From NCBI GenBank assembly GCA_025210335.1, contig JAOARY010000011.1, forward strand, positions 1 to 46,373: a DNA stretch of 46,373 nucleotides, read 5' to 3'. Below are positions 30,441 through 33,902 of this stretch, one piece after another; the first letter of the stretch is position 1, and every line of letters begins with the position of its first letter. Made by a program: the position numbers and the translations under genes. The notes below the pieces were generated by a model. It had not been told where the DNA came from, searched no databases, and saw only the letters and a list, made by a program, of their open reading frames with translations. The stretch is from Peptostreptococcaceae bacterium. GTDB lineage: Bacteria > Bacillota > Clostridia > Peptostreptococcales > Peptostreptococcaceae.

Positions 30441-30514
30441 AATACGATAAATAGGAAATTGTACAAAATTCGTATTATAAGCATATGGTGGAAAAACGTC
30501 TGTATTTTACAATT
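30441..30514 (+). other. Possible structured RNA with pseudoknot-type pairing
   Basis: AATACGA (30441-30447) is complementary to TCGTATT (30470-30476). The intervening AATTGTA...AAAT (30457-30469) is complementary to ATTTTACAATT (30504-30514). The order stem1, stem2, stem1', stem2' is that of an H-type pseudoknot, or of two mutually exclusive folds. A terminator hairpin follows at once. I do not recognise a known riboswitch class. Confidence 0.3.
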
Positions 30515-30517
30515 GCT

Positions 30518-30554
30518 AAAAAAGATGCTATAATTTCCATAGTATCTTTTTTTA
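30518..30554 (+). terminator. Intrinsic terminator after hemL
   Basis: AAAAAAGATGCTAT pairs with ATAGTATCTTTTTT (one G-T pair) around a 7-8 base loop, followed by more T residues. It ends the long cob/cbi/hem block before the agr promoter. Confidence 0.85.
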
Positions 30555-30668: not shown

Positions 30669-31292
30669 ATGGAAAAAATAAAATGGACGAAGAAATTAAG
30701 TTCACGAATTATGAAAAAAATAGCAGATATTTTAGATAAGGATTATAATTCAGATGAAATTCAAATAGCAGAGTATTCAGTTGAATCAATATTGATGAAT
30801 ATATATAAAATACCAATAATATTTATAGGAGCTTATTTATTAGGATTATTTAAAGAAGTTACTGTAATGTTTTTTGCAATGAGCTTTATAAGAGCAACTG
30901 CTTGGGGTGTTCATCTAAAAACTGGTTTAGGTTGTTTGATTCTTACTGTGATTGATATGTATTTGGTTACTAGCATATCAAGAAATATAAATATGAATTT
31001 AGTAATTGGAATATTTTTATTGATCATTGCTTTTGGTAATTATTACAAATATGCACCAGCAGATACTGAGGACAGACCTTGTTTGGATGAAAATGTTAGA
31101 ATACAGATGAAGAAAAAAACTATTGTTAGATTTTTCTTACTTGTTTCAATAGCAATTTTAAGTAAATTATATTATAGTATAATAATATATAATATAATAA
31201 TATTAACTTTATTTGTTATGTCGTGGATGATTCATCCATTAACATATAAGATTTTTGATAGGGGGTATAGGAATTATGAAAAATATAGCTAA
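30669..31292 (+). CDS. agrB: AgrB-like autoinducer peptide processing protease
   Basis: 207 aa, the usual AgrB length. The catalytic pair of AgrB is present as H82 and C89 in WGVHLKTGLGC, with the same seven-residue separation as H77 and C84 in Staphylococcus aureus AgrB. The motif YYKYAPADTEDRPC matches the conserved YAP(I/A)DT segment that follows. Several membrane segments are visible (about 43-62, 67-75, 90-105, 110-122, 152-170, 173-190). AgrB is a membrane cysteine endopeptidase that trims AgrD at its C-terminus and forms the thiolactone. TAGGAG lies before the ATG. The last 17 bases overlap the small agrD ORF, so the two are translationally coupled. Confidence 0.9.
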   Translation: MEKIKWTKKLSSRIMKKIADILDKDYNSDEIQIAEYSVESILMNIYKIPIIFIGAYLLGLFKEVTVMFFAMSFIRATAWGVHLKTGLGCLILTVIDMYLVTSISRNINMNLVIGIFLLIIAFGNYYKYAPADTEDRPCLDENVRIQMKKKTIVRFFLLVSIAILSKLYYSIIIYNIIILTLFVMSWMIHPLTYKIFDRGYRNYEKYS

Positions 31293-31407
31293 AAAAATGC
31301 TAAAGAAAGTAGTAAAAGGACTTAATACAATGGCTTATTCAACTTCTTTTAGTTGCTATTCAGGACATGAAGAGCCTAAAATGCCTAAATGTATGTTAAA
31401 AAAATAA
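31276..31407 (+). CDS. agrD: AgrD-like cyclic peptide autoinducer precursor
   Basis: 43 aa, too short for most automatic calls. ATG 31276 follows TATAGGA and overlaps the end of agrB by 17 bases. The N-terminal part (KNIAKKMLKKVVKGLN) is a basic amphipathic helix, as in AgrD. The signal core is TSFSCYSGH followed by EEPKMP. From Cys27 to the first proline of the tail is seven positions, the same spacing as in the Clostridium perfringens type core (Cys-x4 then x2 and Pro). By family rules AgrB would cut after His31 and join its carboxyl to Cys27, giving a five-member thiolactone CYSGH with an N-terminal tail of unknown length. A second Cys (39) lies in the discarded tail. The ring is inferred, not shown. 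Confidence 0.85.
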   Translation: MKNIAKKMLKKVVKGLNTMAYSTSFSCYSGHEEPKMPKCMLKK

Positions 31408-31418
31408 GTTTTAACTAT

Positions 31419-31456
31419 AAAAAAATGATGTAGATAAATCTACATCATTTTTTTTT
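31419..31456. terminator. Bidirectional terminator between agrD and the GHKL kinase
   Basis: AAAAAAATGATGTAGAT (31419-31435) and ATCTACATCATTTTTTT (31438-31454) form a perfect stem with a two-base loop, with T runs on both outer sides. It overlaps the stop codon of the minus-strand kinase. Confidence 0.9.
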
Positions 31457-32840
31457 AGCTTATTTTATTAGTTTTTATATTATTTATAAATATTTTATTT
31501 TTAAAATTATTAACAAAAGAGGTTTGATCTTTTATTATATAATTACATTCGATTTCTTGAAAAAATATGTTGTTATCAATGAATGTATTTATGCTACAAC
31601 CTTTATATCTGGATATGATTTTTTTAACATTATATAATCCAATACCTCTATTTTTACCTTTAGAGGATATATTTTTTTCAAATATTTTTGTACAATCAGG
31701 TATAGATATTAATGAATTAGATAATATATAATAAATATTATTTGTACTGCTCATAATACCTAGTGAAATTCTTTTCTCAGAAGTTTTAGATGCTTCTTCT
31801 ATTGCATTGTCGAATAATATTCCAAACACTCTACAAAAATCAATTTCTTTCATAATTAAATCAGTAACATTATTAGAAATCATCAAGTCTACATGAACAT
31901 TATGATTTTTTGCACGTGTTAATTTACTAATTAATAGACCTTTTAGTGGTAAATTTTTTACTTTAGATAATTCTAAAAATTCTTTATTATTTACATCAGG
32001 AATATCATTATATATTTGAGTATAAAAATAAGTCTTTAAACTGTCTATATTTTCGGTATCTATAAATTCTTTTAAAGTTGCAAGTACATTTTTCTGATCA
32101 TGTTTGTAAGCTTTAATTTCTTCAATGGAACTTTCGGTAATCTCACTATATAATTTTAATTTATTTTTAGCATCAGTTTCTAATTTAATATTTCTTAGCA
32201 TTAATAATATTATAGAACCCATAAATAATCCATAAGCTAAATAAGTGAATATAAATTTAAAATATAGTTCAACATTTTTTTCTACAATAATTATTTCATA
32301 TACTAATAATGAGATATTTAGAAATAAAAATATTAAATAAAAAATTAGCATTTTTGCATTATCTATTTTAATAGAATTTAAGTTGAATTTATATTTAATT
32401 TTTTTTAATAAAATACAAAATAATAAGGTTCCTATATGAATTAGGATGCTATTGATTAGATATCTTGGAACATTTCTTACTATTATATCTTTTGTCAATT
32501 CGGATATAAAGAAGAGATATCCAATAAGAGAATCTGAGAGTATTCCAAATATATATAGTATAAAAAAATTAACTAATATATCATAATTGTATTTTTTTGT
32601 TTTAAGCTTTTTATCTATATCAATGGTATAGTAAAAGTAAATAAATAGTATAAATATGGAGTAATAAATAAATAATTCAAATGCTCTATTCATAAAAAAA
32701 GATGTTAAGCTTCTAAATAAACCAATAGATGTTAGATAAATAATTTCTTTCAATTTAAATTTAATTTTTAAATCTGATAGATATTTAATTAGTGCAATCA
32801 TAATAAATACAGTAAATACATTTGTTATGGTAGTGTACAA
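31455..32840 (-). CDS. AgrC-like GHKL sensor histidine kinase
   Basis: 461 aa from TTG 32840, with AAGGGA 9 bases upstream. About six or seven membrane segments occupy residues 1-215, the AgrC layout. The cytoplasmic part has the phosphoacceptor H247 in YKHDQKNVLATL, N-box N345 in LFDNAIEEA, and G-box NRGIGLYNV (397-405), typical of HPK10/GHKL kinases that sense cyclic peptides. It converges on agrBD with only the terminator between, so it is not part of that transcript. No response regulator of the LytTR/AgrA type lies on either side. It is the obvious candidate receptor for the neighbouring peptide, but the opposite orientation and missing regulator make that an inference. Confidence 0.87.
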   Translation of the reverse strand: MYTTITNVFTVFIMIALIKYLSDLKIKFKLKEIIYLTSIGLFRSLTSFFMNRAFELFIYYSIFILFIYFYYTIDIDKKLKTKKYNYDILVNFFILYIFGILSDSLIGYLFFISELTKDIIVRNVPRYLINSILIHIGTLLFCILLKKIKYKFNLNSIKIDNAKMLIFYLIFLFLNISLLVYEIIIVEKNVELYFKFIFTYLAYGLFMGSIILLMLRNIKLETDAKNKLKLYSEITESSIEEIKAYKHDQKNVLATLKEFIDTENIDSLKTYFYTQIYNDIPDVNNKEFLELSKVKNLPLKGLLISKLTRAKNHNVHVDLMISNNVTDLIMKEIDFCRVFGILFDNAIEEASKTSEKRISLGIMSSTNNIYYILSNSLISIPDCTKIFEKNISSKGKNRGIGLYNVKKIISRYKGCSINTFIDNNIFFQEIECNYIIKDQTSFVNNFKNKIFINNIKTNKIS

Positions 32841-33078
32841 ACTAATCAGTCCCTTCTTTAAATAATTATAGTTTTTCTATAAAATAAATTATTTACTGTT
32901 TAAAAAATATATATTAATTATATAATGAAATACTATTAAATGAAAGTATTTTCGATAAAAAAATATTTTTCAATAAAAAATCAAATGATAGTAATTACAA
33001 TATGTTCAGTTGTTTGATGGGGAATTCAAAATACCTTTTAATGTATAAAATGAAAGAAAAATAAAATTAAATTTAAAT

Positions 33079-33276
33079 CAAAATACCTATAAAATTTTCA
33101 AAAAAGTACTTATTATGTTAAAACGAAAAAGTAATTAAAGTAAAATACACATAAATATATTAAATAATCTGCTTAATTATTATTTTTAAGTTAATAAATA
33201 AAAAAAGAAAAAGAATCTAAAACTAACAATAGATTCTTTTCCTTTTTGAGGTATGAATATTTTTATAGGTATTTTG
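33079..33276. repeat. 16-bp inverted repeat pair bounding about 200 bp
   Basis: CAAAATACCTATAAAA (33079-33094) and TTTTATAGGTATTTTG (33261-33276) are perfect inverted copies. A third, partial direct copy CAAAATACCT lies at 33027-33036. The bounded 198 bp has no ORF. This could be a small non-autonomous element or IS remnant with terminal inverted repeats, or scattered regulator sites. No clear target duplication is visible. Confidence 0.45.
33203..33247. terminator. Terminator-like hairpin in the intergenic region
   Basis: AAAGAATCTA pairs with TAGATTCTTT around an AT-rich loop, flanked by A-rich and T-rich runs (AAAAAGAAA left, CCTTTTT right). No gene that it would end is evident, so an unannotated short transcript is possible. 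Confidence 0.55.
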
Positions 33277-33413
33277 TAGGACTGCCTTTAAATACATTAT
33301 AAAGTCTCAATTTATAAAAATCAACAAAAATTGTAAAGAAAATTGTTAAAAAAATTTCATAATTAAAAAAATATGTAATATAAAGAATTAAAAAACAGTA
33401 TAATTACAAACTG

Positions 33414-33447
33414 TGTAAATAAAATGAACATGTAAACAAAATGAACA
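33414..33447 (+). repeat. Tandem repeat, two 17-bp units
   Basis: Two adjacent units TGTAAAtAAAATGAACA (33414-33430) and TGTAAAcAAAATGAACA (33431-33447) differ at one base. The period is 17 bp, not an integral number of helical turns. It may be a recent slippage duplication or a pair of regulator sites about 470 bp upstream of crt. Confidence 0.6.
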
Positions 33448-33856
33448 AAAATGTTTTTGTATTTTAAAATTTGATTTGAAAACATTGAAAATAAATATAA
33501 TATAAATTTTAGAACTTGAGAATTACTTGTCAATGTTCGAAAAAAATTTAACGATGTGTCCATAAAATATACACTATATTAATAAGACTAAAGTTATATA
33601 TTTGTTAAAATATCAAAGAAAAAATAATAATATATAATAATTTATACCAAGAAAGAAGAGATGTAAAACGAAAAAAAACTTAAAATTTAAATTGAAAAAA
33701 TTTTATAAAAAAACATTATGGGATTGTAATATCAAAGGGTTGACTGGAAGGTATATTTATTAACTAAAGAAAAATATTTATACATTTTACTAATAAATAG
33801 TGTTACAATTGAATAGGGTTAAAAAAATAATAAAAATAATAAATTAAAAAAGTGGC

Positions 33857-33874
33857 ACGATAATCGCTTAACAA
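33857..33874 (+). promoter_or_regulatory. Possible Rex operator in the crt leader
   Basis: ACGATAA-TCGC-TTAACAA matches the Rex consensus TTGTTAA-N4-TTAACAA at 11 of 14 positions, with a perfect right half. Rex is a redox (NADH/NAD+) repressor known to control crt-bcd-etf genes in clostridia. The site lies in a stem-loop (GTGGCAC 33853-, GTGTCAC -33886) about 30 bases before the crt ATG. Confidence 0.4.
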
Positions 33875-33902
33875 TAAAGTGTCACCGAGGAGGTATTTGG
33901 TT

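Follow-up and report, generated by a model that had tools for sequence, protein, structure and literature searches.

The locus described here raises the question of whether agrB, agrD and a head-on AgrC-like kinase gene that is not accompanied by agrA can form a working peptide quorum-sensing system and, if so, which regulator would receive the signal. The locus is located in a stretch of 46,373 nucleotides from a Peptostreptococcaceae bacterium (contig JAOARY010000011.1), which was analysed as a whole and is referred to as the window. In Staphylococcus aureus the corresponding genes are arranged as agrBDCA, as stated in PMC8748961. Agr loci without agrA (PMC8748961, PMC3901668) are already in print, and so is a pair of an AgrC-like kinase and a response regulator that are both orphans (PMC10602386). 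Searches of the open-licence literature turned up no description of a convergent agrC.

Results

The agrB gene (30,669-31,292, plus strand) encodes a predicted AgrD-cutting and -cyclising membrane peptidase of 207 amino acids. The protein is recognised as an AgrB peptidase by PF04647 (E-value of 6.6e-32; 110.8 bits against a cut-off of 23), and its residues H82 and C89, which are seven positions apart and invariant in all seven aligned sequences, are presumably the catalytic pair. In the protein search, the nearest relative was 78% identical and six relatives were more than 50% identical; no solved structure related to AgrB by sequence was found. The start of agrD (ATG at 31,276, stop at 31,407, plus strand) overlaps the 3' end of agrB. 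The encoded precursor of 43 amino acids has no match in Pfam and reaches 15.3 bits with TIGR04223, which is under the cut-off of 19. It does possess the leader and C27 of an AgrD precursor as well as, in EEPKMP, the expected P-x-x-P tail, and the protein search revealed four relatives with 73-88% identity, one of which has a Ser at the Cys column. The reading frame is kept in all four, and the conservation of agrD on which the original prediction had made itself depend is therefore seen.

The agrC-like gene (stop at 31,455, TTG start at 32,840, minus strand) encodes a sensor kinase of the GHKL type with 461 amino acids. It is matched by PF14501 (E-value of 9.6e-17) and by the NCBIfam AgrC model with an E-value of 1.1e-30, but its score of 107 bits falls far short of the equivalog cut-off, which is 500. 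The two solved relatives found by sequence are both modules of S. aureus AgrC, namely 6e52 (the best, with an E-value of 1.7e-26) and 4bxi. Residues 1-220 contain about six hydrophobic stretches, which fits a polytopic sensor, and H247 within the motif KHDQKN is invariant in seven of seven sequences. The nearest relative is 79% identical, and the protein search returned six full-length relatives with more than 50% identity. When sensor and kinase are divided at residue 215, a boundary of our own choice, the seven sequences all agree at 125 of the 246 positions in the kinase part, versus 59 of the 215 in the sensor part.

A co-directional agrC would be expected of an agr system, but here agrC is convergent to agrBD. 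The two transcription units meet at a hairpin that carries A and T tracts and has a perfect stem of 16 bp (31,419-31,454, both strands; stem arms 31,419-31,434 and 31,439-31,454), which has a folding energy of -19.7 kcal/mol and a z-score of -8.7, an equal stability being reached in 0 of 200 shuffles. This hairpin is likely to be a bidirectional terminator common to agrD and agrC. The consensus terminator scan has no entry for it, probably because the T run lies inside the stem. The coordinates and family matches thus confirm the original prediction as far as agrBD on the plus strand, a GHKL kinase on the minus strand and a perfect hairpin between them are concerned.

The locus has housekeeping genes on both sides, with hemC, a cobA/hemD fusion, hemB and hemL ahead of it and genes for crotonase, 3-hydroxybutyryl-CoA dehydrogenase, an acyl-CoA dehydrogenase and the subunits of electron transfer flavoprotein behind it. 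The interval between agrC and crt (32,841-33,878) comprises about 1 kb of AT-rich DNA with no ORF of more than 66 amino acids. A tblastn comparison covering 32,841-33,900 gave no sign of an agrA remnant next to agrC, the best E-value being about 1. No LytTR regulator is encoded on the 46-kb contig, in agreement with the earlier claim that none is nearby, and all LytTR matches of the genome are located on other contigs. The Rfam scan of the window gave no family at the gathering score and four sub-threshold matches that look like chance.

The straightforward reading of the AgrD sequence is a predicted ring CYSGH, corresponding to agrD codons 27-31 (31,354-31,368, plus strand) and followed by EEPKMPKCMLKK; a Ser-first ring of six residues is a possible alternative. 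Across the five AgrD sequences 28 of 45 columns are invariant, but none of these falls within the ring segment, which reads CYSGH in our sequence and CVNGY, CLLTAG, CYLAAG and SPQGSMC (with Ser at the Cys column) in the four relatives. By our own reading of the ring limits, the more distant AgrD sequences from a related genus show a six-residue pattern [CS]xxG-hydrophobic-hydrophobic (CSRGFL, CSRGFM, CPHGIF, CARGLM, CPKGLL and SRHGMF), and the segment in Alkaliphilus is SVILIF. The original prediction had proposed that the predicted ring is CYSGH and polar, which stands, and that receptor specificity could therefore be unusual, which appears unlikely. Since the segment is hypervariable even among close relatives (CVNGY, CLLTAG, CYLAAG), the polar ring looks like ordinary variation of the signal (pherotype) rather than a sign of an odd receptor.

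We compared the layout of 40 agrB loci of the family, consisting of 39 of the 40 places outside our own locus from one search (G011:C10 was left out) and one of the weak places from another search. agrB was convergent with AgrC in five of them (L083, L085, L086, L087 and L088), which come from four genomes of one genus; in L083 one gene lies between the convergent agrBD and agrC. A co-directional AgrC-like match was present in 15 loci, several of these matches being weak (26-54 bits), and 20 showed no AgrC, including L084, where the contig ends less than 300 nt from agrD. With regard to the regulator, agrA is located directly upstream of agrC in the convergent loci L083, L085 and L156 and on the Alkaliphilus B6464 plasmid, and on the far side of agrB in L088; no agrA was present within the 14 kb inspected in L086 and L087. 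Outside the family, AgrC matches were sought in 393 genomes, and the best seven among the matches listed were inspected (L156-L162). Two of these are convergent and have agrA (L156 and L157), three are co-directional (L158, L161 and L162) and two are without agrB (L159 and L160). L157 is apparently the same record as the plasmid locus of Alkaliphilus sp. B6464, and L156 adds a third family with the convergent layout, its agrA frame being short (150 amino acids). AgrB had 13 matches in plasmid records, of which the one inspected, the Alkaliphilus plasmid, is convergent, and no match in phages. Scans of genome contigs with AgrB alone, or with an alignment of seven AgrB sequences, yielded no locus.

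Relatives of the three proteins also occur on contigs of equal size, namely 22,121 nt (AgrB and AgrC), 36,987 nt (AgrD and AgrC), 2,511 nt (all three), 4,359 nt (AgrB and AgrC), 52,391 nt (AgrB and AgrD), 1,888 nt (AgrB and AgrD) and 3,356,854 nt (AgrB and AgrC), and the genes are therefore probably linked in these relatives as well. On the 2,511-nt contig they occupy about 2,205 nt, and the remaining 300 nt or so are too little for agrA. Altogether, the distinct wiring that had been predicted stands as far as agrBD and a convergent kinase without a linked AgrA are concerned, but the head-on order is not unique, being common to relatives. The peculiarity of our locus is the unlinked agrA and not the head-on layout.

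In the AgrC tree, the proteins from convergent loci group together and apart from the Alkaliphilus protein with moderate support (89/85), and rows of unspecified layout are nested inside this group. These data would fit a single origin of the convergent loci as well as several. A test of AgrC rows as one clade gave a p-AU of 2e-6, but the tested group omitted the nested rows and included the distant Alkaliphilus row, and the result therefore means no more than that the tested rows by themselves do not form a clade. Beside the convergent agrC there is a second, shortened AgrC-like kinase gene in L086 (8885-9826) and L088 (9406-10347); the matched stretch in G090 holds stop codons.

The genome itself comprises 3.28 Mb on 83 contigs and is 92.8% complete, and a gene may thus be absent from the assembly. 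It contains one AgrB match, at the locus described here, and no second agrB. AgrC used as a query over the genome matched only itself, and the AgrC of a relative matched our AgrC plus one place too weak for listing; kinases matching PF14501 number 24. A second agrCA paired with an agrBD elsewhere, which would have spoken against the original prediction, is accordingly not seen, there being one agrB and one strong AgrC match. The unlinked agrA or LytTR genes that it had proposed to look for were found: with E-values up to 0.001 there are four LytTR matches, on contigs C36, C5, C71 and C7, two of which are AgrA-like. The C36 gene adjoins what is by eye a kinase-like ORF, and the C5 protein is without a receiver domain. 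On C5 (L002:1041-2037), the LytTR gene is followed by a small ORF that by eye resembles a membrane protein; we presume that this is possibly a LytTR plus membrane-inhibitor pair of a known type.

The two AgrA-like regulators, at C71:1403-2131 and on C7 (L022:6814-7545, minus strand), are orphans with no AgrC-type kinase alongside, and no agrC remnant was found in the gaps beside either gene. In the NCBIfam AgrA model they score 130 bits (C71) and 103 bits (C7), compared to 183 bits for the Alkaliphilus AgrA and an equivalog cut-off of 400. In both proteins a CEDD start is present, as is an Asp within LDIEL or FDIDL, and we take these to be the acidic and phosphorylation sites. From the contig end to the C71 agrA (L187:1-1402) about 1.4 kb contain no ORF of 60 amino acids. 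Directly upstream of the C7 agrA, on the same strand, a protein of 246 amino acids with a signal-peptide-like start (by eye) is encoded (L022:7696-8436). Neither Pfam nor NCBIfam assigns it to a family, and the best match to a solved structure (E-value of 0.32) is not convincing; the protein is possibly a target or operon partner.

In two trees, both orphans belong to a group of eight AgrA proteins with support of 99/99 and 100/99. The other members are those of the convergent loci of G090 and G015, that of G034, located beside agrBD, those of G021_C27 and G088_C144, located beside AgrC with no agrB seen, and G021_C25, another orphan; the Alkaliphilus AgrA, which comes from a convergent locus, falls outside. 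To the four AgrC-linked AgrA proteins, C71 is 49, 47, 47 and 47% identical, the 49% being to the G090 copy, and C7 is 41, 41, 41 and 40% identical. C7 groups with C71 at 89/90, a value that is not firm, and both branches are long; this grouping fits a duplication in the lineage of our organism. The tree speaks against direct orthology between the C7 protein and the AgrA that occupies the corresponding position in G034 (p-AU of 0.014 when the two are held together).

The position of the C7 gene is shared with agr loci of relatives. agr genes adjoin guaA-guaB in G015 (L148), G034 (L088), G089 (L087) and G088 (L147), and in G015 (L084), G034, G089 and G090 (L086) they are found on the side of pbuG-purE, either next to these genes or no more than about 4 kb away. 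G034 has the order purC-purE-pbuG-agrA, then agrB facing two successive agrC genes, then guaA-guaB. On our contig C7 the order is purC-purE-pbuG-agrA, followed by the genes for the 246-residue protein and an aldo-keto reductase, other genes and guaA-guaB. The order and orientation of pbuG-agrA are identical in the two genomes. The purine interval on C7 is therefore likely to be an old agr site, with the C7 agrA as if left there. As the simplest history we infer that agrBDC left the pbuG-guaA interval for the hemL-crt interval, and that agrA stayed or was duplicated to give the C71 copy.

A promoter-like segment, CTGTATTT-N17-ATGCTATAAT, is located before agrB (30,500-30,534, plus strand). The 18-position block occurs exactly only in the upstream regions of agrB and the C71 agrA within the 3.28 Mb genome; with up to two mismatches it occurs at five places, and a backward control at one. 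Sigma-70-like hexamers (30,506-30,534) match at 11 of 12 positions, but sites of this kind do not stand out from shuffled sequence (47 versus 40.4). The block had been spotted by eye in this pair before any null was computed, and both nulls drew on 232 regions located upstream of genes in our genome. When these were ranked by identity over 35 nt, agrB came fourth of 231 for C71, and C71 was outside the four best of agrB. Under a two-block score, which was picked after this first null, each of the two was the best partner of the other among 231; this score was reached by 19 of 26,796 pairs, theirs included. TGTATTT close before TATAAT is also found upstream of agrB in L084, L086, L087 and L088, at a shorter distance, but not upstream of the agrA genes of relatives. 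A search for LytTR-type direct repeats in the regions before agrB, before agrC and before the two orphan agrA genes gave nothing convincing. The promoter block common to agrB and the C71 agrA is thus suggestive only.

Discussion

The gene set is real and conserved, and it likely represents a split agr system that works. On balance we hold it to be rather probable that the locus is part of a quorum-sensing circuit, the parts of which are spread over the genome. From the sequences we infer that AgrB would cut AgrD and cyclise the five-residue CYSGH ring as a thiolactone, that the peptide would be exported and sensed by the head-on AgrC kinase, and that AgrC would pass the signal by phosphotransfer to the AgrA-like regulator on C71, or to that on C7 at the likely old site. 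AgrA would then act on the agrB promoter. As the output we favour C71 over C7, because it is nearer to the AgrC-linked AgrA proteins (49% versus 41% for the G090 copy) and has the promoter-like block in common with agrB. A branched version, in which one AgrC feeds two unlinked AgrA paralogues, is a tentative possibility. The C7 copy would have been left at pbuG and guaA-guaB, and C71 may close the feedback loop remotely, given the promoter block that it has in common with agrBD.

It appears doubtful that AgrC has no dedicated AgrA at all and works through another regulator or cross-talk, the orphan AgrA proteins serving other kinases. G089 (100% complete, 2 contigs) carries an intact convergent agrBDC and has no C71-type AgrA; the two matches that it does have (best E-value of 1.1e-10) belong to further agr loci of that genome. 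An AgrC of this kind can therefore exist without a C71-type partner. Either a kinase like this does not strictly need an AgrA of its own, or G089 draws on the AgrA of one of those further loci. Such an arrangement would also be in line with the agr loci without agrA in Clostridium autoethanogenum (Agr system 1, a proposed operon of agrB, agrD and agrC whose regulator is thought to be elsewhere, according to PMC8748961) and in phage phiCDHM1 (agr3, according to PMC3901668), and the 24 PF14501 kinases make other partners conceivable. However, the orphans group with AgrA proteins, four of which are encoded directly beside AgrC in relatives, and, since our AgrC matches nothing else in the genome, these orphans would otherwise be left with no kinase of the corresponding type.

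It is still less probable that the kinase is blind to its own AgrD, with agrBD being an output and the receptor located elsewhere. The precedent, reported in PMC10602386, is the orphan pair RgaS-RgaR of Clostridioides difficile, which activates agrB1D1 without sensing AgrD1, and an arrangement of this kind would be possible if agrBD and agrC are transcribed separately. On the other hand, agrC is kept next to agrBD in relatives, and the sensor half of AgrC is more variable than the kinase half. The idea of a decaying agr remnant with little function that has lost agrA, for which agrC without an adjoining agrA or agrA remnant would speak, is very improbable in view of three intact frames, the 78% (AgrB) and 79% (AgrC) identity to the nearest relatives, and an AgrD leader and tail that are almost fixed.

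Like the S. aureus system, the split circuit that we prefer has members of the AgrB, AgrD and AgrC families together with LytTR regulators of the AgrA type, but it differs in the head-on position of agrBD and agrC, the unlinked agrA-like genes with two orphan copies, and the absence of an Rfam match (RNAIII) in the scan covering the window. With Agr system 1 of C. autoethanogenum it has agrBDC without agrA in common, as it has an agr locus without agrA in common with agr3 of phiCDHM1. Unlike in C. autoethanogenum, agrC is convergent here, and both candidate AgrA proteins and a likely old site have been identified. The orphan response regulator and AgrC-like kinase recall RgaS-RgaR, but here agrC adjoins agrBD and the orphans group with AgrA proteins of related agr loci. 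For Clostridium acetobutylicum, PMC10301443 reports agrBD and agrCA as two transcription units and predicts six-membered rings. Two units are likewise present here, and six-residue rings are what we read in the AgrD of relatives. The agrCA of C. acetobutylicum, however, adjoins agrBD and runs from agrC to agrA, whereas in the convergent loci inspected here agrA precedes agrC or is absent.

Agr loci without agrA have usually been left at the statement that the regulator is elsewhere. Here, the missing partner can be named, since relatives show intermediates and an orphan agrA is still present at the likely old site. The intermediate states in relatives comprise agrBD head-on with agrA-agrC, and then agrBDC alone. 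The head-on layout uncouples signal production from receptor dosage, and any positive feedback would need to act in trans.
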